From: Datnioides undecimradiatus
Lineage: Eukaryota > Chordata > Actinopteri > Lobotiformes > Datnioididae
Assembly (NCBI GenBank): GCA_008933995.1
Contig: WARS01000069.1
Location: 124,001 to 188,000, forward strand
Direction of reading: 5' to 3'
DNA: 64,000 nt
A model generated the notes under the pieces. That model searched no databases, was not told the DNA's origin, and saw nothing but the letters and a program-made list of their open reading frames with translations. The translations under genes and the position numbers were made by a program. This document shows, piece by piece, positions 30,746-58,159 of the stretch. Each line of letters begins with the position of its first letter. The first letter of the stretch is position 1.

Positions 30746-31023
30746 ATATCCTTTGACAAGCGCTGCCGAGCAGAGAGCACGCCGCCAAGGTACCGGGGGA
30801 GGGGGGCGGGTGGGTGGAGGTTGTGGTGTGTTTGCTGGAGTGGTTGGCGAGGTGTGGCCTAGTGTGGTGTGGAGTGGTTTGGCCCACACCTGCAGCATGA
30901 AAGTTGTGGTTGTTGTGGTGATTTGTGTGGCGTGTGTGTGTGTGTGTGTGTGTGTGTGAGTGTGTTTTAATTTTGGTCTTTCCCGTTGTGCAGCGTTGTG
31001 AGATGTTACACCAGTTATTTGTG

Positions 31024-31055
<32 letters not shown>

Positions 31056-33555
31056 GCCTTTTGCAGCGTGCTGTTGATTGATCCACGACAGACTGACACG
31101 ATTTCGCTCTCGCACGCTGCGTCCGAGCGCCGCCGCACGCCTCGGGCCCATCTGATAACGCCGCCATTGATGGAATGAGAGATGATGTTGACGATGACGG
31201 CGGTTGTCATGACACCAGCAGTCACAATCACTGTTGATGCTGCTGGTGATTAAGATGCATCTTGAGCGCAGCGTTCAGCTCGAACCTGTTAGTGACCTGC
31301 GTGTGTGCGTGCATATGTGTGTGTGCGTTGGCTATAGTTGTAGTCAGAGCTGAGTGCTGATGTCAGCATTATGAAGGCTTAAGCACCATGCAACCAGAAG
31401 GGAGAGGAAATGACTCTCTCCCGCTCTAATTACTACTGACCATATATGGGCGGCCTGTGGCTCGTCCTGTAGGAAAGCAGTGGAAAAAGCAGTAATTGTG
31501 CCGACAGGTCGCTCCGCTGCCGCTAGAACCTGGAATATTCTTATCTGGCCCGGCCTCGGGTCAGTTTCTCCTCCGTCAGAAGGCGAAAACACCTTAAAAT
31601 CCACTGTGCCCTGAGTTTTTGGGCTCATTTTGACGCTTTCTGATGCAGTTCTTAGTACTTTCTGGAGCCGGAGAGGAGGGAGCTGGAGCAATCGCAGCGT
31701 TAGCATCTTAGACTTGCACACCACCAGGACACCAGATGGCATGGTCTTTAGATTCAGCTGCATAGAGAGCAATATGTTGATGGTGCGAGGTCACAGTGAA
31801 GCGTTTTCAGCGGCTTTGATAGAGTTTGATGGCAGAATATTCACCTCGCTCCTCCCGTACAGCACACCCAGCAGAGCACACACACGCACACACACGAGCG
31901 CTGTAACACAGCATTTATTTACTATTTCTTCAATAAATCGACCAGGAAACACATTCTTACTACGACTTGTCCCGTACTGATGCTTGTTCACAGGCATTGC
32001 AGGATGTTCAGGACGGTCCGATGCACTTTAACGCAACTCCTGCAGCATCGGACCACGTTAAACCGTAGCCAGAAACGATTGTGGTTTCGGTTCGATGTCA
32101 AAGCTACTCTGGAAAAAGATGTTACATACGTGATGTAAGTAAATTTACATATGCAAGGTAGAATAAAGAAGTGTTGACTCGTGGTTTTGGGCCACAAAGA
32201 GCTGCGTCCTGCTCAAAACTCCCGTTTCTTTGACCCGTCCATCCACCCCGACCTCCTCCCTGTGCGCTTTCACCCTCTATACACAAGAAACCTGACTTGT
32301 TCGTTTGAAAAATAAACCCGAAACGCTTCCCGGCGGGTTGGAAACTGATGACAAAGGCGCCTACGTGTGACGAGTTGGAAGTGAAAACTGTGTTTCATTA
32401 CACGTTCTTCCCTGAAATGTCAGCAAATGGTGAAAAGTGCCCGTTGGACGTTTCCAGAACCCGCAGCGACATTTGCAGATATCCCGTTTAGTCCAAACAA
32501 TGCATATTCAGTTCACCATCACAGCAGAAGGACAGACAGTTGAGACAAACGGGGATAATTAAGAGGTCCGACGTGAACCAGGGGTCTTGTGATGTCTTGG
32601 GTTTGACCACTTGTCCACCATGATGTTCAGGTTTCTTTAGATTTAGAGGAGGAACTCTGGTTTCCAGGTTTTTCCATGAGGCACTGTGTTCGTGGTCTTT
32701 TGATTAGACCGTTTCGTGATCACCGAAAGCTCTTTAAGCTACAGTCTGATGCACACCGGGCGTCTCTGCAGGACGAGGCTCCAAGATTATATCATCAGTT
32801 TTGTGTTTCCAGTTGAATTTGTGTCTTTAATGGTGTCGTTTCCCAAACAAATGTGCAATTAATCAAATTGCCACAAGCCAGTTTGGGGATTTTGGAGCCC
32901 CCAGAGGTCTGAGGCACGGAGACGGTTGCTCACTTTGATGGCAGTCCAGCTTTGGGTAGCGATCACGTTTTGGCGCCTGCTTGCATCACGCTCGGCTTAT
33001 TCTACCACCAATGTCTGTTAATCACAATGGGACGAATGTTTGGAGAGTTTCCTCCACCGATCGCAGCTTCGCGAATCCAGAATTGGGAACTTTTGATTGG
33101 GCATTGAACTGTTGCCGGGCATTCTGGGAGACGAAAATGTTGAAAATCCCAGAATCAGGATGCATTCACGGTCGACGCAGGGTTTCGTCCTGCAGCTGGC
33201 TTGTGCATGCTGATTGAGGCGACCTCGCTGTTTACCGAAGCTCCAGACAGTTCTTAACTCAGGGTGATCAGTCAGCTCAGACACTTTGACTGTATATTAG
33301 GCTTTAATACGCAGATTGTGACCAGAGATTGACCCAAAACCACAGGAATACAAGAGGCGATGCAGATAATGGCACCAGGCTGTAGTCTGTTTGCATCTCC
33401 CACCCTTTTGGCACTGGTCGGACCCCCGTCACCATTTGGGAAACCCCCTAGTGTCCAATGATTTCACCCATTTAGTGCAGTTTTCTCCTTATTCTTCACC
33501 TTCGCTTCTTTGTTTACAGTCTGTGTTTCCTTTATAAGGGGACGGCTTCAGACTG

Positions 33556-33569
33556 TCGCCACCTGCTGG
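33556..33569 (-). promoter_or_regulatory. CTCF-like motif in intron 1
   Basis: The minus strand reads CCAGCAGGTGGCGA, matching the CTCF core CCASYAGRKGGC at every core position. Motif only. Confidence 0.4.
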
Positions 33570-36445
33570 TGCAGCATGGACGCGCTAGTTCTCTGTTAGC
33601 CTTAGTGTTTGCAATGTGCTCAAGCGCAGCTGTTTGGTGGTGGCGCGCTCGTCACCACCTGTTGTTTGACATCGGTTGGGTGTGTCTGAGGTTTTAAACA
33701 CCTACAAATAAGAAAAACATTTTTAAAACGCATGTGGTTGAAGCTGCTTCCCAAAACTGTGACTGAACTGATGGAGAAGGTTGTTTGAAATGGACTATTT
33801 GCGTCTTTGTCGTATTTATTGAGCTGGCAGGGCGTCTGATTCTGCTCCTCAGCAGGTGTTGAACCATGAAACGCCGTAATGACATCAGGTTGGTCGAATG
33901 ATTAACAGACTAGTTTTCTTTTTTTATTTTATTTAATTGCTTTTGTACCTTTTCCTGTTTATTATCATATAGTCTGAGGTTTGCGCAGCACAGTGCAGGT
34001 GTGCTCTGCAGGGTTTGGCCCTCAGTTTACTGTGGAGCAGTGAAAACAGGTTTAGATTCATTTATACCGGCAATAAAGTTGATTTCAGTCGATAAAGAGC
34101 GGGAATTCAGACATTTTGTTCTGAAAGCTTGCAGCAGTTTCGCCCAAGACTCTTCGTCTTTCGGCCAATGTAAATGAATGTCCGTTGGGAGTTGAAAATG
34201 GTTTGTTTGGGTTTCTTCGACCTCAGAATCAGTTGCATTTAGCCATTTTGTCCGACTGCGACTCTGAATCAGGACGTCGTCTCATTTCGTTGCTTGATTT
34301 GAGATTTAAATCAAACTTGTCACATCACACCGCCCGCACAGTGAACTCATAAAGGATATGTACTGTACAGGCTTTGTATTTGCACACAGAGCATGCACGC
34401 ACATTATGAGATGCAAAGAGAAATCACTGAATACATTAATTCCCTTCACTTAATATCCAACGTTTGTGCTTTCTTCCTTTTTACTCATCACACAACAGAA
34501 AACAGGAACCTTGTAATGAAGCAACACTAGAAAAGTGAATTGCAGACAAACGTTGGTCAAAAACACAGATTGTAATTTATTTTAACCTGAAGCAAATTGA
34601 GATGTTCTGAAACGTCGTCAGGGAGGAGGTTGTGGTTGATGCACAGGACCAGGTGTAGACCAGGCCTGGAGTCCTGCAGCTCAGGTCGTGGTTTTGGTTA
34701 AATGTTGGAAATACCTACTCATGCGCTCTCAGCTTTGACTTTTCAATGCAAACCCAACTTAACCTGAGTCATGGGCTTCTTCTAACTGGTTGCTTCATGT
34801 TGCCACGAGCATTTGTCCTTTGCTTCTCCGTGTTTACAGCAGTTTTGTGGTCCTACTGGTCAAAGCTTGAAACGTGTGAACTTGTAGCACGCTCCCGGTC
34901 TGACCCAGCACCGTACGCCTGCTGGATCAGGCAGTCTGGGTGCAGGATATCAGCCAATATCTAGTTTAAATCATATGATCTGGCGATACCCTTGTCGCCG
35001 ATTGGTAAGACTTGAAGTCGCAGCAGTGAGCGGGACAGGCTCTGCCACCTTTGATGCTGTCGAAACCACCTGATTGGTAATCCATGGATGAAAGCTAAAT
35101 CAGGGCATCTTGAATCCGTGTCCGACCTTGTTTGACCATGGCGGCGTCTCCACCTGCTGCAACAACACAAGCGGCAAACATGTTACTTGAGTTTCCTGTC
35201 CAGACATCCTGGATAGGGAAGCGGCCTCGGGCACATCGGCTTGAAACCGAATCCGTGCTGGGCGCGGGGTGTTGTTGTTTTTTTTTATCCAATACGAGAC
35301 GAGTTTCACTTGCAAAACATTTTCAAATTTAAAGAACATCCACTTCCTGCTTTGAAAGCGAGCCGTGCATATCCCAGCATGCCGCCATCTGCACAGAGCC
35401 AGGCTGTGCTGGCTGGCAGGCGCTGTGGCTTCTTCCACCAGAGGCCCAGAGGACTTCATTATCCCTCCCTCCCCTCCCTCCGCCTGCACTTCCCCGTTCC
35501 CTCTCTCGCTCTCTCCACGCTCCTTTCATCTCCTCTCCTCCGCTGCTCTTCTTCCCCTGCAACTCCGCTCTAAATGTCCTGTCCTCCATCTTCTCTCCAT
35601 CTCTCCTCCACCCCCCCCCCAGTTTTTGCCTTTACTCTTCTGTCACTCTCCACTTAATCCAATTTAAATACCACGGCGGCAGCACTGTTTATAATAGGGA
35701 GATGTGCAAAATGGGAACGAAATACAAGTTTTTATCAAAATATAATGCAAATCTGAATTAATAATAACCTGCGTCCATCCGCGACTGTTATTCAGATGTT
35801 AGGAGCTGTGTGCGTGGAGGTAAACGCTGGGGGGCGCTGATTCTCCCATTAGGCGCCATTAAACCAGAGTAGAAGAAGACAAACGCAGCAGGCTGATGAT
35901 TTAATGAGCTAACAGTGGAAAACGATGAGGGAGATGTGACTTACACCGACATTTCCACCTTTTTTCTGTCTCTCGGTGTTTATTCTTAATTATGTCTCAA
36001 CCTTTTTCTGAATACTCACCATCCGCTCGTAGGTTCATTAATAGCAGATACTCACATGCACGATTTGGTGCAAACAGGGTTTTTGCTTCAGTTTGACTCT
36101 GAAAGCATCTCTTCATCTGTCAAACCTGCACATTATCAAACAAGGTGGTAGAATCAGTCTCTCCCTCCCTCTCTCTCCCTCCCTCTCTCTCTCTCTTTGA
36201 CCATCTGTCCTGAGCGTTCGTTGTCTGTGTGGGTTTCACACTTCCCCAGCTGGGTTCTGGCCGCGCTGCCCGGCGTCATGTGAGGCAGAGACAAGTGGAG
36301 ACAGACAGACAGACAGTACTGGGCATCGAGAGAGAAGTGAGAGATTAAAGGCTGACCCCACCTCCACCGAAAAAACCACCCCCCAAAAACCCCTGTGGGG
36401 CAATCAGAGGGAGGAATGTCACCTTGTCTTGCCTGTAGCTGTGTA

Positions 36446-36459
36446 GCGCCCCCTGTGGG
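36446..36459 (-). promoter_or_regulatory. CTCF-like motif in intron 1
   Basis: The minus strand reads CCCACAGGGGGCGC, two mismatches from the CTCF core. It lies about 2.9 kb from the similarly oriented site at 33556. Confidence 0.3.
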
Positions 36460-36832
36460 ACGGTCACTCCTGGCGGGATCCTGAGATCATCGGGACGATC
36501 AGAGTGAAGAAACTAAATTAAAACAAAGGAAAAGATCAGAATATTAATTAAACGTTTAAAAGATGCAGGATTGGTTAGCAAATAGTAACTTTATCTAATG
36601 ATTTTTATGTTTTTAAATGTGTAAAATAGAGAAAACTACTAATATGAAGCTTCCAGACCCCAAAATGACGTCTTCATATAGTTAAACACGTCTCCATATG
36701 GTCCGAAAACCATGATGCATCAGAGTAAAGACTGTTTTTAATCAGTTATTAACAAATTATAACTTTATTATTTCATGTTGATCAATTAATTGATCAGTTA
36801 GACGGTCAGACTAATCATTTTCAGTCATGTAA

Positions 36833-36834
<2 letters not shown>

Positions 36835-36870
<36 letters not shown>

Positions 36871-36995
36871 AACGTTTACAGTAAATGCTGTTGTGTTACA
36901 ATTAAAGAATGATGAACGTGAGTTCCAGATAAACAGATGAGATGTGAGGAAGCAAACACACACACACACACATGCACACAAAGACACACACATGC

Positions 36996-37036
<41 letters not shown>

Positions 37037-37309
37037 CATTGACACATCCAGATCCACAGAGGTGGACTGGTAGTCATGGAAACGTGTACTGTATGTGGCT
37101 GTTGAATTCATTTGAAATCACCATTCAACGGTTATGCATGTGTAAACAAACACATAAATGATGCATGGACACACACACACACACACATAAACACACGCGC
37201 ATAAACACACACGCGTTGACGGATCAGCTGGTGGCTTGGCTTCATCCACCTGGCGTGGAGCAAGTAGATCCGTTCAGATCAGTCATGGCTGACAGAGGCT
37301 CTGATAGCT

Positions 37310-37360
<51 letters not shown>
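36835..37360. repeat. GT/CA microsatellite cluster next to gap
   Basis: A (GT)17 tract (36835-36869), an interrupted CA block (36956-37033), a shorter CA tract near 37170-37187 and a (GT)24 tract (37312-37360) that runs directly into the assembly gap. The complementary tracts could pair in RNA. Confidence 0.9.
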
Positions 37361-37817
37361 NNNNNNNNNNNNNNNNNNNNNNNNNNNNNNNNNNNNNNNN
37401 NNNNNNNNNNNNNNNNNNNNNNNNNNNNNNNNNNNNNNNNNNNNNNNNNNNNNNNNNNNNNNNNNNNNNNNNNNNNNNNNNNNNNNNNNNNNNNNNNNNN
37501 NNNNNNNNNNNNNNNNNNNNNNNNNNNNNNNNNNNNNNNNNNNNNNNNNNNNNNNNNNNNNNNNNNNNNNNNNNNNNNNNNNNNNNNNNNNNNNNNNNNN
37601 NNNNNNNNNNNNNNNNNNNNNNNNNNNNNNNNNNNNNNNNNNNNNNNNNNNNNNNNNNNNNNNNNNNNNNNNNNNNNNNNNNNNNNNNNNNNNNNNNNNN
37701 NNNNNNNNNNNNNNNNNNNNNNNNNNNNNNNNNNNNNNNNNNNNNNNNNNNNNNNNNNNNNNNNNNNNNNNNNNNNNNNNNNNNNNNNNNNNNNNNNNNN
37801 NNNNNNNNNNNNNNNNN
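37361..37817. other. assembly gap (457 N)
   Basis: Unknown bases. The gap begins inside a (GT)n tract and is followed by AT-rich AATTAATAAT sequence, so the break probably comes from the microsatellite. Frames reported across it are meaningless. Confidence 0.99.
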
Positions 37818-39465
37818 AATTAATAATAATTAATATAAATTAAACGTTTTTTTTAATTAACAGCACTAATTTGCCCAAACTGGAGGCTGCAGGCGGCGGG
37901 TGTCCTGCCCTAAGGTTGACTTCAGCCTGTTTCTGTAAGTGAAAACGCTTGTGTTATTATTTTTCATGCTCTGAGCTCAGATGTCCGTCGGTTTGGGGGA
38001 GCTCCAGGTTCCTCGGTGTCAGTTTTGGAGTCTGGACGATCTCGGCCTTTACAAACCGACCAAATCTTAGAAAAGTCCAGGTTCAACCAAACAGCTGTTA
38101 GAGAGTCATCGAGGTGAAAAGAACCCGGTTTCCTCAGGAGAAGGAAACGCTGTTGGAGCTTTTTCGTTGTTACCTAGCAACCAGCACCTTTAACCCGTTT
38201 AGCGCAGGAGGAGACGTCGCTCTGAGGCTCATCGTGTTTTTAGCTTTTGACACGTTTGACCACGGCCGGACAACGATGTTGCTCCTCCCCTTGAGGACGG
38301 AGCGACTTAGACGATGCGTCGGTTCGTGCGGTCGCTGTGGTGCAGAGCTGTCGAGCGAATGGAGGGAGACGGCGGCCGCGGGGAGAGGCAGAGCAGCTGA
38401 TTGGACGCAGAGCATGTCTTAAAATTCAAAGATTCATCAGCTTCTCAGACGAGCTCCACCAGCTGGTCACATGATGGTAGCGTGCGCGTCCCTGCGTCCG
38501 TCCAACCCGTTCATCCACATACGGAGAGACGGACGTATAGTCGTGTCGCTCTTGGATACGACGTCCTGACAGACGGACGAGCGCCATAGTAACTTGTGTT
38601 TTGACAGAGCTTCACTCCAGATACGCGATCCTCACAGTCAGTTCCCTCAGTGTGCAACTGTGTGTGTGTGTGTGTGGTGAAATGTGATACCCCTGCTGTC
38701 CTCTGCTCAACTCTGTGTGTGGGCTGCCACCACTCTGTGTGTGTGTGTGTGATGTCTGTTGCATATTATGTGTCTTTCAAGAGGCCACGACGGGGCGAAT
38801 GATCCTCGGACACCAAGTTCAGCTTGGGGATGCAACTGGGCGAAATGTGTGTGAGGAGTTTAAGGAGAGAGACAGGAGGATGAAGGGAGAGGAGGCAGGA
38901 GGAGGTTTCAGCCTCAAATCCAAGAATTAGTCAGTGTCTGTTTGACGTCAGACGGATCCTGACCACCTGAAGCTGAGGTGACGCCGGCTGTGTCGCTCTG
39001 TCCGCCCCGTTCGGCTGCGACAACACACACTTCACTCCTGATTTTAGATTTTAGAGATGCCTGTTTCTGTCACAGACAACAAACTTCACGTGAAGAACAC
39101 TCGAGCTCGGCCACCGACGTGTTTCACTTCAGTCTTTTGAAGAGTTCGGACGTTTTTAAACCGGCGAGGTCGAGTGCGGAGAGCAGGCGGGGTGAGAAGG
39201 AAAACCGTAATGAGGTGTGGAGCGAAAGAGGAATGGACGGAGGTTGAGAAAAATACGAGAAGGAGGTGGGGAGAGAAGGACGGAGGTTAGGAAAGACGAA
39301 AAACAAGTCGGGAAGAGAAAGAAAGAGAAGAGAGGGAGGGAGGTGGAGAAGGGAGGAGGACGAGGGAGCGATGGAGGTGGAGAGCCATAGTGTTTTCCCC
39401 CCATGTTGAGTCACTGATCTACATTCAATCTGCACTATGTGAATTATTGATTGGCCTTTAGCCAG

Positions 39466-39469
<4 letters not shown>

Positions 39470-39496
<27 letters not shown>

Positions 39497-39615
39497 CGGT
39501 GCTGAGATGCTTTTGCTGAAAAGCACAGTGGTGGCGTTTTTCCTTTTTTCCTCATTCTATTGATGGAGAGGGAGCGAGAGGCAGAATAGGGAGAATGGGA
39601 CGGATTGATGCAGAT

Positions 39616-39656
<41 letters not shown>

Positions 39657-39798
39657 CGTGCACGCACACATGCACAAGCTTGCAGCTGTCCACACACACA
39701 CACACAAACAGATGCACACAAACATGCGTGCACTGTGTTCACTCTGCCACATTTACATTTTTCCACTCACAGCACTGAAGCACATGAAAATGCACTTG

Positions 39799-39840
<42 letters not shown>

Positions 39841-39913
39841 GACACAGAACAAACCAACCTTTGAGGCAGGATTGATATCTAAAGATATCTAAATACCAAC
39901 CGGGGGAGGGGTT

Positions 39914-39964
<51 letters not shown>
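39470..39964. repeat. cluster of GT/CA microsatellites
   Basis: (GT)n at about 39470-39497, (CA)n at 39617-39652, 39801-39836 and 39916-39964, plus short CA runs between them. All translations through this block are repeat artefacts. Confidence 0.9.
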
Positions 39965-39966
<2 letters not shown>

Positions 39967-40507
39967 AGTCTGTCTCAGCCAACACCCCCGTTGCACCAGC
40001 CTTAATGGTTTCTTCTCAGTCCATACGAACTAGTTATCTCCTCCATCCTGGACTCACCCATTCCCTGAACACGGGGTAGTTTTACATTTTCTGCATGTTC
40101 GTTCTTTCTGTTTGGATCCAGCATCTCGTCGGCGCACCTGCGCCGCGTCTGAACACGTCGCACATCAGAAAATAGACGTTATTAGGAGGCATTGTTTCCG
40201 TACGTGGGCGGGTTTCTATATTTGTAGACCGTCTCATCTCCTGCTCGCCTGTCTGCATCTCAGGTGTCCAAAAGACGTCTTAGTCATCTCCTCCTCAGTC
40301 AGGAGGCATTATTCATTTTTATTTATTCAAATCTGTGCGAGGCACTCGGTCAGAAGTGATGGGTTAGTTATTGGTTTGGGTAAACCAGCACCTTGCTGCA
40401 TTCTGGGTGGTCTGTAGTCGGCAGAGACCAGGAGAAGGGAAAGAACAGAGGTGTTATGAAATGAAGTGGTGAAGCACACGACGTCCTACGTCCTAAAGTG
40501 TTTATTT

Positions 40508-40629
40508 GCGCGCTGCATGCACAACAGTCTGCAGACCGCTGCGGTTCTGCGTGCAGCCGGTACGTTGCAGCCGTGTGGGAGGGCCCGCGCAGCCGCAGCA
40601 TTGGAGGCATTAACGCCGAGCAGTTCGAA
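40508..40629 (+). mobile_element. retroelement-derived arm, left copy of inverted pair
   Basis: This roughly 120-base GC-rich segment is repeated in inverted orientation at about 41101-41234. Bases 40527-40573 match the reverse complement of 41166-41212 perfectly over 47 bases, and similarity continues to the GGCATTAACGCCGAGCAGTT segment. The right copy is joined to LINE-like sequence, so this is likely a partial copy of the same element. Confidence 0.65.
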
Positions 40630-41034
40630 TCATTTCCGCCGTTCAGCCAAAGATAACTGATGTCCGACAGCCTATTACTGTTAATTCGAGTGGTTATTTA
40701 GAAGCCATAAAGGGCTCTTCACCTTCCCTCTCAGCTTACAGCTCATTGCAATCTGTGTTGTGCAGTTCACTGAAAAATGATAATTAGTTACAATTACTCG
40801 TTACTTCTCTGCAACGTCGTCCGGTCGCTTTAAAAGCAGTTAGTCACCTTTGTGTTACTTTTAAATGTCGCCTCCAATTCTCTGCTAACACACATCATAT
40901 CAATGTTGCTGTGGCACAGTGTGGGACGAGACAACTGTCAGATTGTAGCCATTGCCACTGCTGCGACTCGTGGTGGGCAGCAGCGACTAGCGTGCCTGGC
41001 TGTGAGCTACACCTGTATTGTCTTGGTTAGGATT

Positions 41035-41290
41035 CTACATTTCTGCATTTCTACAGTGTCATCTGGCAGAAGCGTTCATCCAAAGCGACGCATTGTTAGA
41101 ACTGCTTGGCGTTAGTGCCTCGAATGCTGCAGCTGCACGACCGGCTGTGCACGGGCCCTCCCACGCGGCTGCAACGTACCGGCTGCACGCAGAACCGCAG
41201 CGGTCTGCAGACGTTTGTGCATGCTGCGCTTGTGATGTTGGGACTTGACGCCTCTCATAGGCTGAACGTAGAGGGGTAGTTAGAGTTATG
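41035..41290 (-). mobile_element. LINE-like 3' fragment, right copy of inverted pair
   Basis: Read on the minus strand, it has CTATGAGAGGCGTCAAGTCC (encoding YERRQVPTSQ), then the GC-rich arm shared with 40508-40629, then a tail GCGTCGCTTTGGATGAACGC, TTCTGCCAGATGAC and GTAGAAATGC. Both ends resemble the LINE remnant at 1816-2172, which has the NERRLVPTSQ-like segment and the GCGCTTTGGACAGAAGC tail but lacks the GC-rich arm. The element is truncated and non-autonomous. Confidence 0.6.
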
Positions 41291-42606
41291 TAAGCAAGCG
41301 TCAAGGTTTGCAGGATGCAGTGCTGGATGTGTGTATTTAATGCTGCAGAAGCTGATTTTGACTCTGAGGCTGCGTCCTTACACAAACAACGACGACAGTA
41401 AATAGAAATAATTAAAAACAGACTTCATTTCAATATTTTTATACAACTTTACAGTGACACCGGTGCTTTTTAGCACTAATGCACACCGATATTAAACCGA
41501 CGACCACCAACTCCGATGCTGAACAAAACGATTTTCTAACATTTTCTTTAATCAGTAGCTTAATTGTTAATTGAGGTCATGACGTTAAAGAGCAAAGGAA
41601 GTCTGTTTGTGACTCTTTTATCATGTAAATGTAATGAAATACAGTTCCTTGTTTTCCCCTGAGTCGTAATTCATGTCCAGCCTCTATGGCTCACGCATTT
41701 TGATAAGTGGAAACATCAAACTACATCTTCAAACTGCCTGATGTTGTTGGGATTTAAATATATTTCAGGTTTTTAATGTGAAATGTTCGTCCTGCATCTT
41801 CTACAAACACGCGCGATCAATCGACGGATAGGGAAGCTCGTTGGCGGATTAAATGAACATCGTGCTCGTCAGACTGCACATACCTGGGATTTGAACCGGC
41901 AACCCCACAGATCCAACCCTGAAGATGCTGAGGAGTGTGTGTGTGTGTGTGTGTGTGCGAGGGCCGTCCTCCCCTCCATCCCCGCCAGTCTGCTTCTAAT
42001 AGTTATTTTGCCAAAGTAATGAATGGTGGTGTCGGGGAAATGATCACCTTAATGATCGTAATTATTGTAATTGAGCTGCAATAGGACGTTATTGGAGGTT
42101 CGGGACCGTCAGGGAGACGAGCGGCGTGCGTTTGCGGTGCAAGGCGTGTGTGGGGTTGAGTGAGGACAGGCGGAGAGGACGGAGAGAGCGAGGACGTTTT
42201 CAGGAAGCAGCCGTGGACGCTCTCAGCTGCTCGTCTTCCTTTCCTTTACCTCCTCTGCTCCTCTCCAGCTCTTCCTGGCTGAGCCGCCCTCCCCCTCCCC
42301 TCCCTCGCTTCCTCTCCTTACACCCCTCTCAGCTCTCTTCTGCTTCACCCTCCTCACCCCCACCCCCACCCACCCTCTCCATTTTACTCTGGCTGCTGTC
42401 GACAGTGTGGAGAGCAGGTCGGAGCAGGGAGAGGGAGGAATATGCAGCGGAGGGTGATGGAGGAGGCAAAAAGAGAGAGGGGGTGAGTGGCGGGGGGTGG
42501 GGGGTGAGGGAGTAGTGACAGGCTCAGTGTGTGTTTGATCTGAGCTGGCCCCCCCCCCCGCAGCCCAGGGCGCCTCTCCCCAGAAACAGGGCCAAGTGCT
42601 GGCATC

Positions 42607-42644
<38 letters not shown>

Positions 42645-44150: not shown

Positions 44151-44210
44151 AGATTCAAGATTCAAGAAGCTTTATTTATCCCGAGGGAAACTGCTGTGCA
44201 GCAATACAAA
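44151..44210 (+). mobile_element. common teleost dispersed repeat fragment
   Basis: AGATTCAAGATTCAAGAAGC followed by TTTATTTATCCCGAGGGAAA and CAGCAATACAAA resembles a dispersed fragment I associate with many teleost genomes. The family name is not certain from reading alone. Confidence 0.5.
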
Positions 44211-44810
44211 GGTGGAAAAGTAACCTGTGAGAGAGAGTGGAATAACGCTATTAATCATCAAGTCAACCAGTTTTCACCGAAGTTAATGCCGCTAACTCAC
44301 CTCCCTGATGAGCGCAGTGAAATGTGACTGAAACTGAAACGAAAATTGTAAAATTTTGCAGTAAAAGCTCAAAAATTTGGTGCTTTTTTTGCTTTTGATT
44401 CATTGTAAATCGGATGAAATGAGCAGTCTGAAGACTTTGCCTCACACTCAGGAATGTTTTTGTTTAAATTCAGTGTTTTAAGTGATTGATTGATCAATCA
44501 AAGGAGTAATTAATAGATACTGAATGGTATTTTTTTGGTTCTAGCCTTTAATCTTGATAAATGAAGCTAAGTTTGGTGCAAATTTGGTGAGATTAAGAGA
44601 CGGCATCCTTGGAAAATGAGTTAAACTGGGTTTTCTGGTGACGTGTGATAGTGTTAAGGCCATTTTTATATTAATGAACCTAAAATAGCAGCAATCAGCT
44701 AAAATCTGTTATCTGACATGTCGCACCCGCCCACAGTGATGAAATACGTGCGACCTGAGGGCAGGTTTCTAATTTATCTCTATCTGTGAGGTCAAAGCCT
44801 GAAATGGGAA

Positions 44811-44843
44811 GAGGAGGAGGAGGAGGAGGAGGAGGAGGAGGAG
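44811..44843. repeat. (GAG)11 trinucleotide repeat
   Basis: Eleven perfect GAG units within intron 1. The minus-strand reading gives poly-proline, which is not taken as coding. Confidence 0.92.

Positions 44844-46570: not shown

Positions 46571-46572
<2 letters not shown>

Positions 46573-46620
<48 letters not shown>
46573..46620. repeat. (GT)24 microsatellite
   Basis: Uninterrupted GT tract in intron 1, followed after about 45 bases by a short GA run. Confidence 0.93.
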
Positions 46621-46622
<2 letters not shown>

Positions 46623-48019
46623 AGATCACCAGGAGAGTGTGTGTGTTAGGAGAAGGTGGAATAAGAGAGAGAGAGACAGAGAGGAGAGGACATAATTATA
46701 ATTACAGTCTTTAATCCTCTGGACACACACTCACACACACTCACACACACACTGGGCGAGCTTTTAATTAACTATTTGGCGACAGGGGATTCTGGTATTG
46801 GGCTAATTATTTGAACCGCACATCCCTGCACATGTCTCCTCCTCTGAAACGCCTCCGCGGAGGCAGACCAGGTGCTGCTCGCCCTCAGCTCACCTGGTAA
46901 TTGAAAGGGTTTTTTTCGGCGCCGAGATCGTTTCGCAGCGAAATCCCTCGAAGTCGGAACTCATCGGGGGACGGCGAGCGAGCGAACGCGCGAGCTAAAG
47001 CTAAAGCTAGGCTTCCTCTCTGCTGCAGCCTTATCCCGCGGTGTAATACGGATTTAGCGCTAAAGGAGGACGAGTAACCGGCTGTCGTCTCCTTATTAAA
47101 GGTTTTTAAGGCTCCCCGACTTTATCTGCCGCCGCACTTCAGCTCAGGTTTAACACGCTCAAATCCCAAGGGGGATTCTGTTTGCAGAAAGGGTTTTACC
47201 ATAGAAATACAATACAAGAACGCGCTGGAACGCCTTGGACTAGCAGATAACATTAATCATAAGCCAACCGTGCACTGGATTTACCATGAAAACCACACGG
47301 AGAGAGGAGCAGCAGCTTAGTTTGATGTTGAAGTGGCAAATTTTAAGGCGAAGGGTGAAATTCATCGGAACATATCGCTGAGTTAGCCCCCACGGTTAGG
47401 TTAGCTGATGGGTTCGCCTCAGTATCGACTTGGTTTTGTTTCCACAGTCCAAATATTTGACCACATTTCTGACTTTTAACCGTTTGCCGTTTACCTTCAC
47501 TGCGGAGCGCCGGCTAAGATGCTAACGGATTGAAGTTGCACACGCTAAGTCGTCGCCACGCCGGGCTAGCATGTTAGCAAACTGCACTATTACTTCCAGC
47601 GGCGTCTTCAGCTGCTCTGCATTTGTCCTTTGTCAGCCATCCAGCGATTTATATGATAAAATAATAGAATGTCTTTGCACAAGAGGACTTTAAAGTGTGT
47701 GTTCTGCATCATTTTGCATGACACAGAGTTTGAATTGAGACCTAGCAAAGAGTCTGTGGAGTGGGAGACGGCGGACATTAGCTACTTCCTGCTTGTCTCG
47801 TTGCGTTTACAGTCTCACTTGCTCGATTATGTTTCACACGAGCTCCCGTCTTTAGTGTCTGACCGCTGCCATTGGCTCCCCCCTCGCCTTTAAACGGCTG
47901 CGGCGATCTTAAAGGGCCGCTAACGTAGGAGGGCGCCATTAGTTTTGTTTTCACGGGGGTGCTGTGGCGTCCTGTAACTGTGACCGTATAAAAGACTGAA
48001 ATGAAATCCAGTTTTAATA

Positions 48020-48020
48020 T

Positions 48021-48051
<31 letters not shown>

Positions 48052-48055
48052 TTTT
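48020..48055. repeat. (TTTA)9 microsatellite
   Basis: About nine tandem TTTA units in intron 1. Confidence 0.92.
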
Positions 48056-49604
48056 AAACTGTGTGAACATTAGTGTGAAGATGCCGAATGTGAGACGTAG
48101 AGCGAAGACGATTCCAGTCTAGTAAACATCGAATATCTCCATCAGTGTGCGCGCGCGAGTGTCTGCGGGTGTGTTCTCTCGTCTGATTGTCAGTGTGCAT
48201 AAAATGTGTGTATGCATATCTTTGTGTGTGTGTGTGTGTGTGTGTGTGTGGAAGCAGCAGTCAGGTGGATGCAGTCTGTTTCTAAATCAGATCTCTGTGT
48301 GATTCACCAGGTTGATGAGTCACCACAGCAGCACGGGCACAACCAGCCTTGTCTTACAATACACCCCCCCAACACACGCACACACACACACACACACTTT
48401 TACATATGGCTCACTCCTAACTGTACACGTATGTGGCGTTCCAGTGTGTTTCCATACATGACCCAGCCCCTGCGCGTACTGTACGCGTGCAGGTGCGCCG
48501 CGTGAGCGTGGCGCCGGCGTATTGTCAGCGTATTGCGCCGCGGCTCCGCTCTGCAGATGTGATTTGGTGACTAATGTAGAAGCTGCTGATGTCATGTGTT
48601 TGCTTCTCCTCGCTGCTGAACTCCTCATTTCCTGGACATTCATCATTTATCAGCCAATCACCTTGCACACACACACAACCACTGGTGTACACACACTTAT
48701 CTATATACGAGCTTAGAGACGCAGGCAGCACAATATACAGGATATAAGCTGACATATCACGGCCAGCTGCCGTGAGGAGTGAGGAGGGACGGGGAGACGC
48801 ACAAAGGAGAGGAAGCAGAGACGAGGGAGGAGGGATCATGCGATGGATGTGTGATTCAACGAGGCAGCATTACAAGAAAGTGACTGCGAACGTGTGAAAT
48901 CAAACTAGTAGCAGCAGCAGGAGTAGTACTACTAGTAACATGCATCCGCGTTGTGTAACCGCCGCCTGTGTGACCGCCTCAGACGGCCGAGCGTAACTGG
49001 ACCCTATCGATCGCAGCATCAGACACACGCGGATCCTCCAATGAGCTGATGTGTAGCCGGATTGAATTTGGATCCAGTGAGGGCGCTCACAGGCAGGGCT
49101 GCTGCAGGGGAACACGCGTTACCATGCAAAGCTGCAGCGCAAAGAGCGACACATCTCCACAGCACAGTCGGGAGTTACGGCTCGCAGCCTGATAAATGTC
49201 TAAATGTGACAATTACAAGTTATTCTGCAGCAGAAGCGTCTCAGTCGTCACTTTGCATGTTGTTGGAAACAGTCAAACGCAGGTTGCAGTCACATGCACC
49301 GGCCCCCAACTGCACATCTGCACCTTTTGCACCGAAATCGGTACTTGGCTGCACCCTCGTGTCCGATCGGACACTAGAAACTGGAAACGCAGACCAGGAA
49401 GTGCCGACACCCAGCACTTGGGTGCAATCTGGCGTCTTCGATTTACAGTGTTTGTCGTAAACACGCACAGTCCTCGCTGTGTTCGTCGTCGTCTCCTGCA
49501 GAGTTCACGTGAACCGTGTGCAAGTGCACGTTTACGCGTGCGTACGTGTGTCCAGCAAGTGACAGGGGAGGAGGGGATGCTCAGAGATTTGTGGCGAAGG
49601 TGAA

Positions 49605-49608
<4 letters not shown>

Positions 49609-49659
<51 letters not shown>

Positions 49660-49806
49660 TGAGAGAGAAGACAGAATACTCGGTCATCAGTCCTCCTGAC
49701 AGTTTTACGGCTGCTGAGCTTGCAGGACGCTGTGGGATGTTAGTTAGCCCACCTCTTCACACATCAGACCTGTGCAGGCAGGCGTGTGCGTGTGTGTGTG
49801 CGTGTG

Positions 49807-49863
<57 letters not shown>
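49609..49863. repeat. two long GT microsatellites
   Basis: (GT)24 at about 49609-49657 and a longer interrupted GT/GC block at 49784-49863, both on the sense strand of intron 1. Confidence 0.92.
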
Positions 49864-50857
49864 ATGCACTTCACGGTGTTGGATGCTGATTTCCTGCAGC
49901 TCCATCGCACCTCGCTGGCTTCGACTCTGCCTGGTTGACCCGTGGGCCTGAACAGACACTGCATGTGTGTTGGATCTGAGGGTCTAATGTGGACCAGGAG
50001 TTTTATTTCAGCCTGAAACCAAAAGCTGCACCTGAGCAGGTGAATATGGAACTGAAACGTCAGCTTCTCAGTGCCGTCCACCAAAGTTAGCAGAGCTGGG
50101 TGCAGACCAGGCTCCAAGACCGACCGCTCTGCAGTGACACTTTACACACGTTCACGCAGGAGTTCCATTACATTCGAAGCCTGATACGCACAGGATGGGC
50201 CTGTGACGACTGTCGTGCAGAGGTAGATGCATTATGTCTGCAGACCGGGGACGGCGTCACTGGTTCGTATTGAATGAATCTCAAACAGGTGAAAGCAGCT
50301 TTTATAATGTGGAAAATGGAAAATCATATCATCTTGGTACTTAAAGGTTGCAAGGCATTATAGAGATATGAGATATAATCTGCTCTTCTAAGCAAAAGCG
50401 AGGCAAGATTGTTTGAGCGGCCTAGTGCACCTCGGCGTTTCACTGGCCGACCGACGGCAGGGATGGAACCAGTGAACGCGTCTTCGCCAGTCCGTCTGCT
50501 CAAATCGTGAAAGCGCTAGTTACGAAATCAGACGTGATGCAAAATGTATGGCAAAATGAGGAAGGCGGCGTGGAGCAGCGGCGTAAAGACGATTTTGCAA
50601 AACAGTGACATCCACAGCGCACCCGTTCCTTTTCAGCAACCTCTTGACTTGTGACGTGCAAACAGTTTGTGGTGCGCAGCGGTTGGCGCCCTGACTCCGG
50701 CGTGTTTGACGGGCGCATCAGCAGCAGGAGCAGACGCGTCCCTTCTTTGTGTTTCTGGTCTCAGCCCGCTGCCATTTGGAATGAAACCCTTGGGCTTATT
50801 TTGGCGTTGGGAAGCGACAGCGTAACCGGTAGCTCACTGGTATCTTTCGAGCTCTCG

Positions 50858-50892
<35 letters not shown>

Positions 50893-51059
50893 GCAAACAC
50901 ACACACACGCACTCTGCAGCTGCTTCAGCAGAACTAAAATGGAGATGGTACATGTAGCTGTGTGGCCAGCGTGGCAATGTGTGTGTGTGTGTGTCTCTCC
51001 TTGTCTGTAACCTACTTTTATGGAGCCCCTCACTCCAGAATGATAAAAATACTGTGTTT

Positions 51060-51330
51060 CCTCCTCCTCACCCCCCATCTCACCCCCCACTTCTTTCCTT
51101 TTTCTCTCCACCTTTACCTTCTCTTCCATCCTTCAGCCTTTCCTTCCTTCTGCTCCTCATCTTCTTTTTTCCATTTTCTCTCCTTCCCTCACCTCTTCCT
51201 CTGTTTTGCACTCCTCTCCTCCTTTTCTGTTCCTTCCTCCTTCTCCCCATCCCCGTCCTTTTAATCCGTTTCCTCCTTTTTATCTTTCTCTGTTTCATCC
51301 TCGCTCCTCCTCTCATCTCCCATCCTGGCG
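51060..51330 (+). repeat. pyrimidine-rich tract in intron 1
   Basis: About 270 bases dominated by C and T, with CCTTCC and TTCTCC units, like the tracts at 10070 and 17535. The open frames through it are composition artefacts. Confidence 0.75.
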
Positions 51331-51807
51331 GCGGGGATGCTGATGCTGCAACGTCGGCCTGGCTGAGTTGGGCCGTATAGCCGAAGGAGTGAGGAAGGAG
51401 AAAGAAAAGAAGAAAGAAGAATAGAGAGTATCTCTTGGCTTTGATTGGTCCCAGATTAAGAGAACAGAGAAGATGCTATAAGCGTGAGAACGAGGCGAGG
51501 AGAGATGGTGGAGATGTGATGCCTGACGGATAGAGAGGAGTTTAAAATGGTGAAAGGGCTGAAAACTGAGAGATTCTGTGATTCTGCATCAAGATGTTTC
51601 ATGTTTTTTAATCATTAAATGAGCGAAGTCGACCTGTTTTGGTTTTTGATGATTTCTGAAGCGGAAACACCTTCTCCCAAATTTATTACTGGCTGTCGGT
51701 TTGTCATTTAATGGCTCTTTGCTGCCCTCTTGCAGCCGTTTCAAGTTTTCAGCTGCTGTCGAGTGAGTTTTTGTGCTTTTGCGTCACGTTTTTTGTTTTT
51801 TTTGCAG

Positions 51808-51925
51808 GGATGATCAAACGCCGCCAGTTTCTTGCGACGGAAATGGCCTTAGCGATTCAAGATGGGGAGAATTTATACGAAGGCTTTTAAAAAGTCCAAG
51901 AAGAAACTTTTGGCCTCTGCAGGCA
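51808..51925 (+). other. candidate cryptic or nested exon within intron 1
   Basis: A T-rich tract ending TTTTTTTTGCAG (51807) is followed by 118 bases and then a consensus donor, GCA followed by GTAAGT, at 51926. One frame is open throughout (starting DDQTPPVSCDGNG and ending RRNFWPLQA). Another starts MIKRRQFLATEMALAIQDGE and reaches a stop after about 28 codons. I recognise neither product. Its U2-type ends do not match the U12 ends of the host intron, so simple cassette inclusion is unlikely and a separate promoter or a chance match is possible. At 118 bases it would also shift the frame. Confidence 0.3.
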
Positions 51926-52255
51926 GTAAGTTACCAGCCCGTCCGCGTTTAATAATTCCGGACGGCTGGATTGTTAAAATAGCGCAGGGCTCCAGATGAC
52001 TGACCTACAAAAAAGCTGCTCAGGCAGTTGGAGGTGCCTGCCAGAGTCAGGCCAGAGGCAGGAGAGAGATTACAGCTTTTATCTTTGGCATTTGTTGTTT
52101 CTTTGCATCGTTTGTGATGCTCTCCGTGTTTAGATTCTTATTTTTCAATAATATTTTAATTAAAATTCTAGTTTTAATTAGTCAGACAATAAACAATGCT
52201 CTTATTTTACCTTCATGCTTTATTTGAGACCCAGTTCCCACAGTGATACATGCAA

Positions 52256-52486
52256 TCTAATCTAATCTAATCTCATCTAATCTAATCTGATCTGGTCTAA
52301 TCTGATCTGGTCTGGTCACCAGTCTGGTCTGGGAGTCTGCAATCTGATCCTGATCTGATCTGGCTGATCTGGTCTGGTCTGATCCCTAATCTGGTCTGGT
52401 CTGGTCTGGTCTGGTCTGATCTGAACTGGTCTGGTCTGGTCTGATCTGGACTGATCTGATCTAGTCTCTGATCTGGTCCTGGATCT
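52256..52486. repeat. TCTRR pentamer satellite
   Basis: About 230 bases of degenerate five-base units: TCTAA at the left end, then TCTGA and TCTGG, with runs of pure TCTGG near 52390-52420. The graded change in unit type suggests spread by slippage and unequal exchange. Confidence 0.88.
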
Positions 52487-53021
52487 TCAGTGTTTTAACC
52501 TGAATCCCACCTGCAGCCACAGTCTCAGCTGCTTTCACTTCAGGAGTGTGTGTGTGTGTCTGTGTGTGTGTGTGTGTGTGCAGCTGTCACACCCTAGAGA
52601 TGAGACTCTTTCCTTGAGTTGCATCATGGAAGATGCTCTTGAGAGTGTTACTTTCTCGCGTGTGTCTTGTGAATAATTTGTTTGTAGCCTTATGCATGTG
52701 TCTGTGTGGTGTGTGTGCACGCGTGTGTGTGCACGTGTGTGTGTGTGTGTGTGTGTGGCACATATTTGGGCTGCATGTGTTTGTTGTTACCATTCAGTTT
52801 TGAAAATGGTGGCTACAATGGCTCAGCTTAGCGGAGCCAGGCAGTGATGGGCGGTTGGTTGTGCATGCATGTGTGTGTGTGTGTGTGTTTGCGTGTGTGT
52901 GTTTGCTTGTGTATGTGTGTGTTCAGTGTTCAGGGGTGTGTGTGTGCATGCTGTTGACTGGGGAAAGAATCTGCTCTGTAGTTCTCATTAGCAGCCTGCC
53001 AAGTGGCACAGCAGATATTAA

Positions 53022-53090
53022 AAAGAGAGAGAGAGGGAGAGAGAGAGAGAGGGAGGGAGGGAGGGAGAGAGAGAGGGAGAGAGAGGGAGG
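53022..53090. repeat. GA/GGGA purine tract
   Basis: About 70 bases purely purine on the plus strand: (GA)n interrupted by GGGA units, with GGGAGGGAGGGAGGGA at about 53051-53066. Confidence 0.9.
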
Positions 53091-54272
53091 CGCACCCTTT
53101 TATCTTTCACATGTCTATATATAGCAGTTCATGGAGGAGAAGAGTGGAGCAGGATGGGAGGGAGGAGGGGAGGTGGAGGTAGAGAGAGGATGGAGAGAAG
53201 GCAAGATGGCCGAATCAGAGCGAAGGAGCGAGAACGATCCGGAGCCACTCTGAGCGGTTCTCAGGTTCAGAGGAGGAGCGTTCGACCTGGGAGGGAGGAG
53301 GCAGATGGAGGGATGGAACCTCCAGCGTGAGGGATGTTCCTCCTGCAGCGCGGACGTTCACATGTTCCTATATTGATACCAGCAGCTAACAGCTAACGTT
53401 GATTTTAAAGGTGAAAACCACAGACGTGGCGCCCGGCGTGTCGGGTTTTGAGCTGAAATGACAATAAAAATCCTTTCCTGCGTTGATTTTGCGCCGGGGA
53501 CGCTGCGCTCTTCAGCAAACGCCTTTGTCAACAACACGTTTCAGTTAAACATCCTTCAAAGAACAGATCAACGCAGAGCCAGGTGTTACTGATATGTCAG
53601 ACTCAGCCGGGTCCAGCTCTGAAACAGACTCACAGAGAACCCAAACTCTGAACCTGACACCCGTAATTTACTTCCAGCAGGAGACCTGATCCAAACGGGA
53701 CCTGCGGAGATCTTATTAGACCACGATTAGACTATAGAGTAGGATTTGGGTTGGGTTTCACGTTCGAGGAGCCGAGCGAACCCCGTGAAGACGTCTGCTG
53801 CAGCCGGATGTGCATCATGAGCGAACATCCGGTGTAGTCCAGCATAGCATCTCCACGCTGACCTCCGTGGTTCTGCTGTGGAACCCAAATCGTGGGCGGG
53901 ACCACACCCAGCGACCGGGCGGCGGGTGCGAAACCCGCTCGGCTGCGTCTTCGTCCTCATCTCGCACTTTTCATATCATCCAGGGAGCTCGCGATGCATT
54001 TGGAAAATCAGAATTAGAAATGAAATTCGAGTGCGTATGAAGCTGTTTCCTGCATGTTGGCGAGGGAGGATGGAGGGCGAGAGAGAGGGAGGGAGAGAGA
54101 GCGAGCGGGTGCTTGCGTCACTCCCATAAAGGAGCCGACTCTTGCTGAGTCGAGCGCTACACGGTTTCATTTATTTGATAAAGCTTCATTTGGTGTGATT
54201 TAAAATCTCCCCCTCATCAGGCTCGGCTCCCGTAAAGCACAGCCTCAGCGCCACGCCAAAATGCCTCATCAG

Positions 54273-54314
<42 letters not shown>

Positions 54315-55177
54315 CAGGCTTGACGGGCAAACTGGTACACAAGGACGTTTCTCACAGGATGGCTTAGACTGAGGGGCATTTAAACTGGTGTGGGTCGGTC
54401 GGTGGAGCAGGGGCGGGTAGTTGTAGCAGGGGATGCTGGGACGTGTAGTTTTGTGGTGCAGAAGCGTCTTTGCCCGGTGCATCACCTGCACCGGGTGGTT
54501 CAATGAACCCGGGAAATGAAAACATGTCGTCAAATCAGAATGAAGACAATCCGCCGCGTCATGTCCTGCGCTGGCTGCAGGCCTGTGGATGTTAAAATGG
54601 AGTTTCTGAGCTGCAGATGACCAGGTTTTCAGATTATACACGGATGTGGTAGATGTCAGCTCCTCTGCAGGTGTAGGTGTGTTTTCATTGTGTTGCATGA
54701 GTTACACACACTTGTGCCGCTGCCCATGAACGCAGGCGGGCACAGGTGTGACGTGCACCGTGCAGGTTGATCGCAAAGGGCTTAAAGAGTGTTCGACCAT
54801 CACATCGGTCCACACTGACGTCATCAAAGGACACGCTTTTGCTCCGTCGCGCAACCAAAATACAACAGAGCTCAGGCACACGGGACATGTCCAAATACTG
54901 GACCCCCGGGGCCAAACTGGACCCCTGGGGCCCGGAGCGAAGGCGTTTCAGCTGATCCCAAATCCCCCCGGAGCGCAGATTGTGCTTTTACTTTGGCAAG
55001 GACGCGCTCTTAATGCTCGAAGGGTCACTTCGTCGTTAGCGCTCAGCTACTGCGTCCGCTCGCACGCTCCTCGTGGTATGCGGCCATTTTGAAATGTTGC
55101 CTGAAAAATGGAGCGTGTGCATAAAAACCAGCCATCTCTCTCTGTAATAAGTTAATACACTTGCTGGCAGAATGATG

Positions 55178-55263
55178 AGTGTGTGTGTGTGTGTGTGTGA
55201 GTGTGTGTATGCAATAATAGGCAGTGGAGTAACAAAATATTGCTGATGTGGGTATTTCCTTTC

Positions 55264-55320
<57 letters not shown>

Positions 55321-55513
55321 CAAAGCCTATTAGTGCATTAGCTAGTGTAATAATGCGTGTTTGCATGTGTGTGTGTGTGTGTGTGCATTTTTTCTGTTTG
55401 CATACATGCCTTTGTGTGTGTGTGCATGCGTGTGTGTGTGTGTGTGTGTTTAATGGTTTGCTTTGAGTAGCCGCCTGCAGTGGAAAGAAGAGATAAAGAG
55501 TGAAAGGAGGAGG

Positions 55514-55551
<38 letters not shown>

Positions 55552-55570
55552 TGTGTGTGCGCGTGTGTGT
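55178..55570. repeat. cluster of long GT microsatellites
   Basis: GT tracts at about 55178-55208, 55267-55319, 55368-55385, 55413-55449 and 55518-55570, all on the sense strand of intron 1. Confidence 0.9.
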
Positions 55571-56103
55571 GCGATGTGAGGTCAGTGTGTTTGGCAGGGC
55601 AGGGCTTGTTTGTGGCCATCAGAAAGCCATTTTAATTAACGAGAAAGCAACACACACACACATTTTTTTGCAGCGCTCACCAATAACACTGGTGCCAAAA
55701 ACTTCTGCTCTCTAATTGCTTCCGATTCACATAATCTCTGCCCGTCCCCAACGAAACGAAGGACCGGAGGGAAGTGGGAGACAGAGAGCGAGGAGAAAGG
55801 ATCAAATCTGGAGGGGATCAGCGCTTCTGTTCATCGGGAGGAAAGGAAGAAGGAAGTTGTGACTTCCTGTTTGCAGGCAGCTAGAGGAGGAAATTGAGAA
55901 GGCAAAGAGTAAAAGAAAGAGGGATAAGAATAAAAAATAAAGAGCTGCAAGTGAAAAAGAGCGAGAAGAAGAAAGGAAAGTCAATAAAGACGAGGGACAG
56001 TGGGGAAGATGGAACGGAGAAGGCAAAACAGATGAAAAACAGGGAGGAAGACAGAGAGATCTGGACCGTTATCGAGAGAGACTGCAGGGAGGTGAAGAGA
56101 CGG

Positions 56104-56148
<45 letters not shown>

Positions 56149-56456
56149 GCAGTGTTACCTCCTGCTTTCAGCAGGTTGTTAGGCCAGCAGAGTGTGTGTC
56201 TGCTGAATAATAGATGGCGTAGCAGGCTAGCATGTAGTCTGAAGGCGCACACACACACGCACACACACACACTGCATCTGCAGGCTGCGTAAGGTTACTG
56301 TAAATTGATTTGCAACAAAATCCTGTGAGTTGTTCGTATCGTGATCGGTGCAAATAAAAAAAAACAAGTAGGAGGGAGAGAACATCGTTTCCACTCCTGC
56401 AGGTTCAGTACCGTCCTGCAGGAAGAGCCGCGGACTGGCCCACAGGACGGCAGCAC

Positions 56457-56638
56457 GTTAGCAGTGTGCTAACGTCTGTTAACTTCTGTTAGCACACTGC
56501 TAACATGCTGCCACCCAGAAGCGCTTGCTTATGTTAGCACACTGCTAACATGCTGCCATCCAGAAGTGCTAACTTCTATACATATTAGCAGTGTGCTAAC
56601 TTCTGTTAGCAGTAAAGAGCTGAAAGCAGTGTGCTAAC
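56457..56638. repeat. tandem perfect inverted repeats (TTAGCAGTGTGCTAA)
   Basis: GTTAGCAGTGTGCTAAC at 56457-56473 is the exact reverse complement of GTTAGCACACTGCTAAC at 56488-56504. The latter recurs at 56533-56549, and the first form returns at about 56585-56600 with a partial copy at 56626-56638. With flanks, the first pair reaches 25-bp arms with one mismatch and a 14-base loop. The family is unknown. Confidence 0.85.
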
Positions 56639-56729
56639 ACTAACACTGCTAACTGCATGTTAGCGTCCGTGGCTCAGGCTCGGGCATACATGCTGTGTGT
56701 GTGTGTATTCTCCACCAGATATTACAACA

Positions 56730-56762
56730 GAGAAGAAGAAGAAGAAGAAGAAGTAGAAGAAG
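56730..56762. repeat. (GAA)n trinucleotide repeat
   Basis: About ten GAA/AGA units with one interruption (GTAGAAGAAG) in intron 1. Confidence 0.85.
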
Positions 56763-57079
56763 ACTTCCTGAAATGGGGCTAATTTGCTAAATATCTCTTC
56801 CAGCTTCCTGAATCTGAATATTCAGCTTCTCTTGTTGAGTCTGATCTTCAAGCGTGTTCTTCCTGGTCCGTCAAGTTTCATGAAAATGGTCCGAGTACTT
56901 CCTGTGCAGCACGTTCATAGACGAGGTCTTTTTTGTTTCCCGCTGCTGCATCTTCCACAAGAAGATGTGTGTGTTGAGCGTTCGCCAGCCGAGCATGTGC
57001 AGCGTAGCTCAGCGGCGTCTTGTTAGCGTGCAGCTACTCCTCAGACCGACCTGTCTGATCCGCTCACATCCACCCGCAG

Positions 57080-57121
<42 letters not shown>

Positions 57122-57322
57122 GCCGTCCTCCGGCCATAGTGTCAATGTCAACGTTGCATCTGGTAAACACGACAATAGACACGTACCCCACACACACACA
57201 CTAACTCAGACGGACACACACACGAAGGCTAACAGGATAATGACTGGCCAATTAGGCACAGGCTTGATCTGTCTGGATGTATCCAGTCATCTTAGCCCCT
57301 CCAGCGGCCATTACTCAGGCAT

Positions 57323-57356
<34 letters not shown>

Positions 57357-57932
57357 CACAGCACAACACATACAAACGCACTTGACTGGATGGAGCGCTG
57401 TGAAAAGCTGGCTGCTCCACCAGGCGACCTCTGTGAGTCAGGCTGCCCTGTGTGTGTGTGTGTGTGTGTGTGTGTATACTGCTTTGTTTCCACGTCCAGC
57501 TTTGATGAACTTCCTGTTTCCTTCTCCTCAAACCCCGCTGCTGTGTATTTTGGGGAAACCGGGAAAAAAAACGGGAATATGGAGGAACCTCGAGCGGATT
57601 AACAGCCGCACGCCGCAGCGCCACGCGTGTGATGAAAGGGCGACAGTTGTTTACGTTCAGTGTAAAAGGTTCAAGCGGAGTTAAGCGTATTAACAGAGAC
57701 GTTAAAACAAACAGATGAGTCACCGCGTTCTTTGCAGGAAAAACCCAAAACACATAAAATCAAAAAGGATGAGAGCAACAAAGAGTCCATGTGCATCCTT
57801 ATTTCCTTTCCTTATATCCTTCAGTGCGTGCAGAGTGTATCTGTGTTTGCATGTGACGTCTCAAATGGCACCATCAAGACATCTGAGTTCATGGCTGCTG
57901 CTTCATCTCTCTGGTGTGAGTGCTTATGTTTC

Positions 57933-57934
<2 letters not shown>

Positions 57935-57970
<36 letters not shown>
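57935..57970 (+). repeat. (GT)18 tract directly upstream of exon 2
   Basis: Eighteen perfect GT units ending 16 bases before the U12 branch-like element and 36 bases before exon 2. It is complementary to the (AC)21 tract at 58115-58156. Confidence 0.95.
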
Positions 57971-57972
<2 letters not shown>

Positions 57973-57985
57973 ACTCCGTGTCATT

Positions 57986-58005
57986 GGCCTTAACTCCAGC
58001 CGCAC
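57986..58005 (+). other. cacna1a: U12-type branch site and AC acceptor
   Basis: GGCCTTAAC (57986-57994) matches the U12 branch consensus TTCCTTAAC except at its first two bases. The intron ends CGCAC, with the AC terminus at 58004-58005. Distance from the likely branch adenosine to the end is about 12 bases, in the normal U12 range. There is no long polypyrimidine tract, as expected for this intron class. Confidence 0.8.
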
Positions 58006-58111
58006 TCCGTTTGAATGGATGATCCTCACCACCATCATCGCAAACTGCATCGTCCTGGCTCTGGAACAGCACCTTCCTGACGGAGACAAGACGCCTCTGT
58101 CTGAACGACTG
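58006..58111 (+). CDS. cacna1a: cacna1a exon 2: segment IS1
   Basis: This 106-nt exon completes the split proline codon and reads [20 protein letters not shown], then [15 protein letters not shown]. It forms transmembrane segment IS1 of domain I and the short IS1-IS2 extracellular loop. The match to Cav2 channels is nearly residue for residue. Trp replaces the usual Tyr after PFE, and DGDKTP is closer to Cav2.2 wording although exon 1 favours Cav2.1. The exon ends in phase 0. Its donor, CTG followed by GTAACA, is weak because C occupies +5, and the (AC)21 tract starts at intron position +4. A (GT)18 tract lies 36 bases upstream. Flanking introns are about 27.3 kb and 427 bases. Confidence 0.95.

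Positions 58112-58159
<48 letters not shown>

Follow-up and report, generated by a model that had tools for sequence, protein, structure and literature searches.

A candidate U12-type AT-AC intron of about 27 kb between the first two coding exons of a fish cacna1a gene

Introduction

In Datnioides undecimradiatus, coding exons 1 and 2 of cacna1a lie some 27 kb apart. How are they joined to one another, and do the class and length of the intron between them bear on how much channel mRNA is made? The original prediction was that a single minor-spliceosome (AT-AC) intron separates the two exons and that its length, together with slow splicing, could determine how fast the channel mRNA is produced. 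Both parts are considered here in the window, by which we mean the whole 64,000-nt stretch of DNA analysed. The work reportedly cited on the U12-type AT-AC intron in domain I S1 (D1S1) of Cav and Nav genes is that of Wu and Krainer, from 1999. In nearly every Cav and Nav gene the intron at D1S1 has been classed as U12-type AT-AC (PMC6259924). All ten alpha1 genes carry at least one minor intron (PMC8767276), as is also stated for calcium-channel alpha1 genes elsewhere (PMC6865273), and Cacna1a is listed among the channel genes with minor introns (PMC6558932).

Results

The coding part of exon 1, supported by protein match to Cav2.1, spans 30450..30745 (+) and comprises 296 nt, i.e., 98 codons plus 2 nt, so that it ends in phase 2. 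Exon 2 (58006..58111 (+), 106 nt), recognised by protein match and by the Pfam Ion_trans family, holds the start of domain I S1; it is followed by intron 2 (58112..58538 (+)), a GT-AG intron with a pyrimidine tract, and by exon 3 (58539..58678 (+), 140 nt), after which comes the donor GTGAGT. We find that exons 1-3, when joined, form an open frame; among solved chains its top match is Cav2.1 (chain 8x90; 392.9 bits, E 2.5e-117), contiguous across the exon 1/exon 2 junction. Cav2.2 (380.7 bits) and Cav2.3 (327.4 bits) score lower, which places Cav2.1 at the top of the Cav2 paralogues, and Cav1, Cav3 and Nav chains are weaker matches, with 49 distinct sequences in total matched at E up to 0.001. 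The three Cav2 chains, which we take to be human, all align without gaps across the junction. From YKQ onward, six of the seven positions that differ between Cav2.1 and Cav2.2 are 2.1-like and one is 2.2-like, in an alignment read by eye.

Pfam places Ion_trans (PF00520, E 1.6e-17) at residues 99-179 of the joined protein, beginning at the very codon that the intron divides, and in the Cav2.1 alignment the junction reads WP/PFEWMIL, with the split falling after the N-terminus and before domain I S1. The proposal that the intron is flanked by coding exons 1 and 2 of cacna1a is supported by the sequence, with Cav2.1 as top match and boundaries of exactly 30745/58006. The interval between them, 30746..58005 (+), fits the D1S1 intron of Cav and Nav genes, and its computed length of 27,260 nt agrees with the predicted 27 kb; this length is approximate because 457 N of assembly gap (37361..37817) fall within it.

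The ends of this interval carry the signals of a U12-type intron. The putative U12 5' splice site, 30746..30754 (+), matches ATATCCTTT at nine of nine positions and is the single such match on the + strand of the window, where ten donor-like sites reach at least 8/9, this one included. One further exact ATATCCTTT lies on the - strand at 34359, and we suspect no role for it. At the far end, CCTTAAC occupies 57988..57994 (+), placing the branch A at 57993, and is the only + strand copy in the window (three are found on the - strand). The surrounding sequence, GGCCTTAACTCC, agrees with the longer published consensus TTCCTTRACYCY (Figure 6 legend, PMC6259924) at 10 of 12 positions, with the core exact and the opening TT of the consensus replaced by GG. 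On its own this branch site is unpersuasive, given 22 + strand sites that match at 10/12 or better, two of them at 11/12; an AC ends 10-14 nt past the branch A in six of the 22, the 57988 site among them, and in neither of the 11/12 sites. The intron closes with AC at 58004..58005 (+), preceded by C, so that the 3' splice site (CAC, 58003-58005) fits YAC and lies 12 nt beyond the branch A, within the optimum of 11-13 nt quoted in PMC6717393. The perfect donor, and the CCTTAAC with a terminal AC 12 bases past the branch adenosine, are therefore found exactly where they had been predicted.

What makes these signals convincing is their coincidence: an exact donor, a branch site and an AC fall together at the join that homology requires, and the chance of the combination is negligible (~1.7e-11 for one fixed junction, by a first-order Markov model). 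U12-type introns lack a strong polypyrimidine tract. The last 40 nt of the AT-AC intron are 62.5% pyrimidine vs 82.5% for intron 2, a mild difference from a single comparison.

We then consider other ways of joining the exons, with the last exon base scanned over 30700-31599 and the first exon base over 57500-58039. The peptide KKITEWPPFEWMIL had been thought to be restored by one junction only, which does not hold in that form, since three joins restore it: 30744/58005 with CA-CA ends, 30745/58006 with AT-AC and 30746/58007 with TA-CT. What stands is that 30745/58006 alone among the three has recognised ends. In all, 75 joins with GT/GC-AG or AT-AC/AG ends are in frame and free of stops, and among them the homologous peptide is restored by 30745/58006 alone. 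One of the competing joins is an AT-AG intron that would use the same donor at 30746 with the AG at 57998-57999; it is in frame and without a stop, but that AG lies just 6 nt past the branch A, vs 12 for the AC, and the Arg-Thr that it would insert between WP and PFEW is missing from the Cav2.1, Cav2.2 and Cav2.3 chains, so that we regard this form as highly improbable.

Even further from what we would expect, to the point of being nearly negligible, is a main form that uses an ordinary U2 GT-AG intron or includes an additional exon between exons 1 and 2. An AAG followed by GT is present at 30790, and a number of GT-AG joins keep the frame, but none in the scanned range restores the peptide, and the contiguity of the Cav2.1, Cav2.2 and Cav2.3 proteins at the junction argues against an extra exon. 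The intron is overlapped by 372 stop-free stretches of at least 40 aa (both strands, composition-filtered), among which a minor cassette exon could still lie. Out of 77 ORFs of at least 100 aa, nine stop-free ones (five of them upstream, the other four within the intron) were searched with Pfam and give no match at E up to 0.1, a sample that leaves room for undetected exons or transposon fragments. Taken with the homology and the splice signals, these comparisons point very strongly to 30746-58005 as the conserved domain-I-S1 U12-type AT-AC intron of vertebrate cacna1a (Cav2.1).

Acting on this AT-AC intron, the minor spliceosome would remove 30746-58005 and link exons 1 and 2 in phase 2, which would restore ITEWP/PFEWM at the start of S1. 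In such introns, U11 and then U6atac act at ATATCCTTT, and U12 acts at CCTTAAC. We infer from knowledge of the family that the intron is spliced in this way and depends on these snRNAs. If the intron were retained, the frame would run into a stop codon at 30957, having encoded 169 aa; unspliced RNA would thus be unable to make a channel. Skipping of exon 2 would shift the frame. The 3' splice site of exon 2 is U12-type and its 5' splice site U2-type, and plain skipping would mean splicing a U12 donor to a U2 acceptor, a combination not expected of the two machineries.

Exon 2 is also flanked by complementary dinucleotide repeats. A (GT)18.5 tract at 57935..57971 (+) ends 16 nt before CCTTAAC, and an (AC)21 tract at 58115..58156 (+), complementary to it, starts with the fourth base of intron 2. 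The predicted RNA fold pairs 57935-57971 with 58120-58156 in an unbroken 37-bp helix of -110.1 kcal/mol, whose loop would contain exon 2 with its two splice sites as well as the U12 branch site. The fold has a z of -6.87, with none of 200 shuffles as good, a value that mainly restates the presence of complementary repeats because shuffling breaks up the tracts. A GT tract upstream and an AC tract downstream at such distances are found from 175 of 63,500 starts (0.28%), or 356 (0.56%) in either orientation, where the distance limits were set after the tracts had been seen and the window is repeat-rich. With 33 GT and 26 AC tracts of at least 8 units in the window, chance suffices to explain the flanking pair, and the GU/AC pairing around exon 2 is likely due to chance. 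A splice-site class mismatch discourages plain exon skipping or exon circularisation. A model in which a length-variable helix tunes recognition of exon 2, while the class mismatch discourages its skipping or circularisation, can be drawn from these features; we consider it very unlikely. Lin et al. reportedly dealt with fish intron repeats in connection with RNA structure and U2AF2.

Several other features of the window were recorded. Within the intron, an inverted repeat has 82-nt arms (40510-40591 / 41148-41229) that are 94% complementary and separated by 556 nt; it could represent a non-autonomous DNA transposon bounded by terminal inverted repeats. Inspection by eye reveals no clear target-site duplication. 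Far upstream, an ORF of 146 aa at 3806-4246 (+) ends in HKLHNTPQARRKQWE, with its stop codon inside GTGAGT, and close to where it starts lies CTCCTCCAG, which resembles an acceptor; Pfam gives no match to this ORF, which is perhaps an exon of a neighbouring gene. Just before the coding part of exon 1, in 30419-30449, TTCCTAAC at 30419 and TGTCTGCAG, which ends one base 5' of the start codon, resemble a branch site and a 3' splice site, suggesting a possible 5'-UTR intron immediately upstream of the ATG. A search of the window with Rfam at gathering thresholds returns no structured-RNA match.

Discussion

Whether the AT-AC intron governs the output of the gene is a separate matter from its identity. 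That its length, combined with slow U12 splicing, sets the rate of channel mRNA production draws some support from a report that minor splicing is ~2-fold slower, a possible rate limitation or bottleneck (PMC8199999), and from the reduction of Cav1.2 and Nav1.5 upon U6atac knockdown (PMC8767276). Against it, in mouse tissues minor introns that are retained (150) are significantly shorter than those that never are (467), with a further 105 retained in just 1 or 2 replicates (PMC6717393), which is the opposite of what rate-setting by length needs. Length would also be expected to postpone the appearance of mRNA upon induction and not to set its steady-state output. On whether U12 introns are slow, the sources disagree: the ~2-fold figure is set against a statement that U12 excision is too little slower to affect expression meaningfully (PMC7367187), and the difference seen for seven U12 introns in Drosophila (median half-life 4.9 vs 1.9 min) is not significant (PMC5762160). 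Length plus U12 class as the setter of the production rate is therefore left unsupported, and we consider it very unlikely. It is plausible, by analogy with the related channels, that output from cacna1a would depend on the minor spliceosome, and that it would do so through the class of the intron and not its length. The length itself is consistent with a general trend: from species to species, the median length of minor introns correlates with that of major introns (Spearman 0.903, PMC10639083), so that a genome with long introns is expected to have long minor ones too.

These findings indicate that an ancient minor-spliceosome intron common to calcium and sodium channel genes persists at this locus and can be very long. 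They offer no new mechanism; their practical value lies in annotation, where gene finders restricted to GT-AG introns would misplace exon 1 or exon 2. Our literature search for the size of human CACNA1A intron 1 listed one paper, on PTCHD1, and a search on the introns of fugu Cav2.1 returned none.

The closest known systems are the D1S1 introns of Cav1, Cav2, Cav3, Nav1 and Nav2 genes (PMC6259924), which occupy the same domain I S1 position as the cacna1a intron; from this position we infer that the two are the same intron. They are alike in their AT-AC ends, ATATCCTTT donor and U12 branch site, and for the ~27-kb cacna1a intron there is no tested difference in kind from the D1S1 introns as the text of these papers presents them. 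Scn5a intron 3 and Cacna1c introns 2 and 13 are likewise minor introns of related channel genes (PMC8767276). When U6atac is knocked down, Scn5a intron 3 and Cacna1c intron 13 are retained more and both channel proteins fall, a demonstrated dependence on U6atac (PMC8767276), whereas the cacna1a intron is known here by its sequence. What we describe is thus an already known kind of intron, in a known place, in another genome, and ordinary save for its length.
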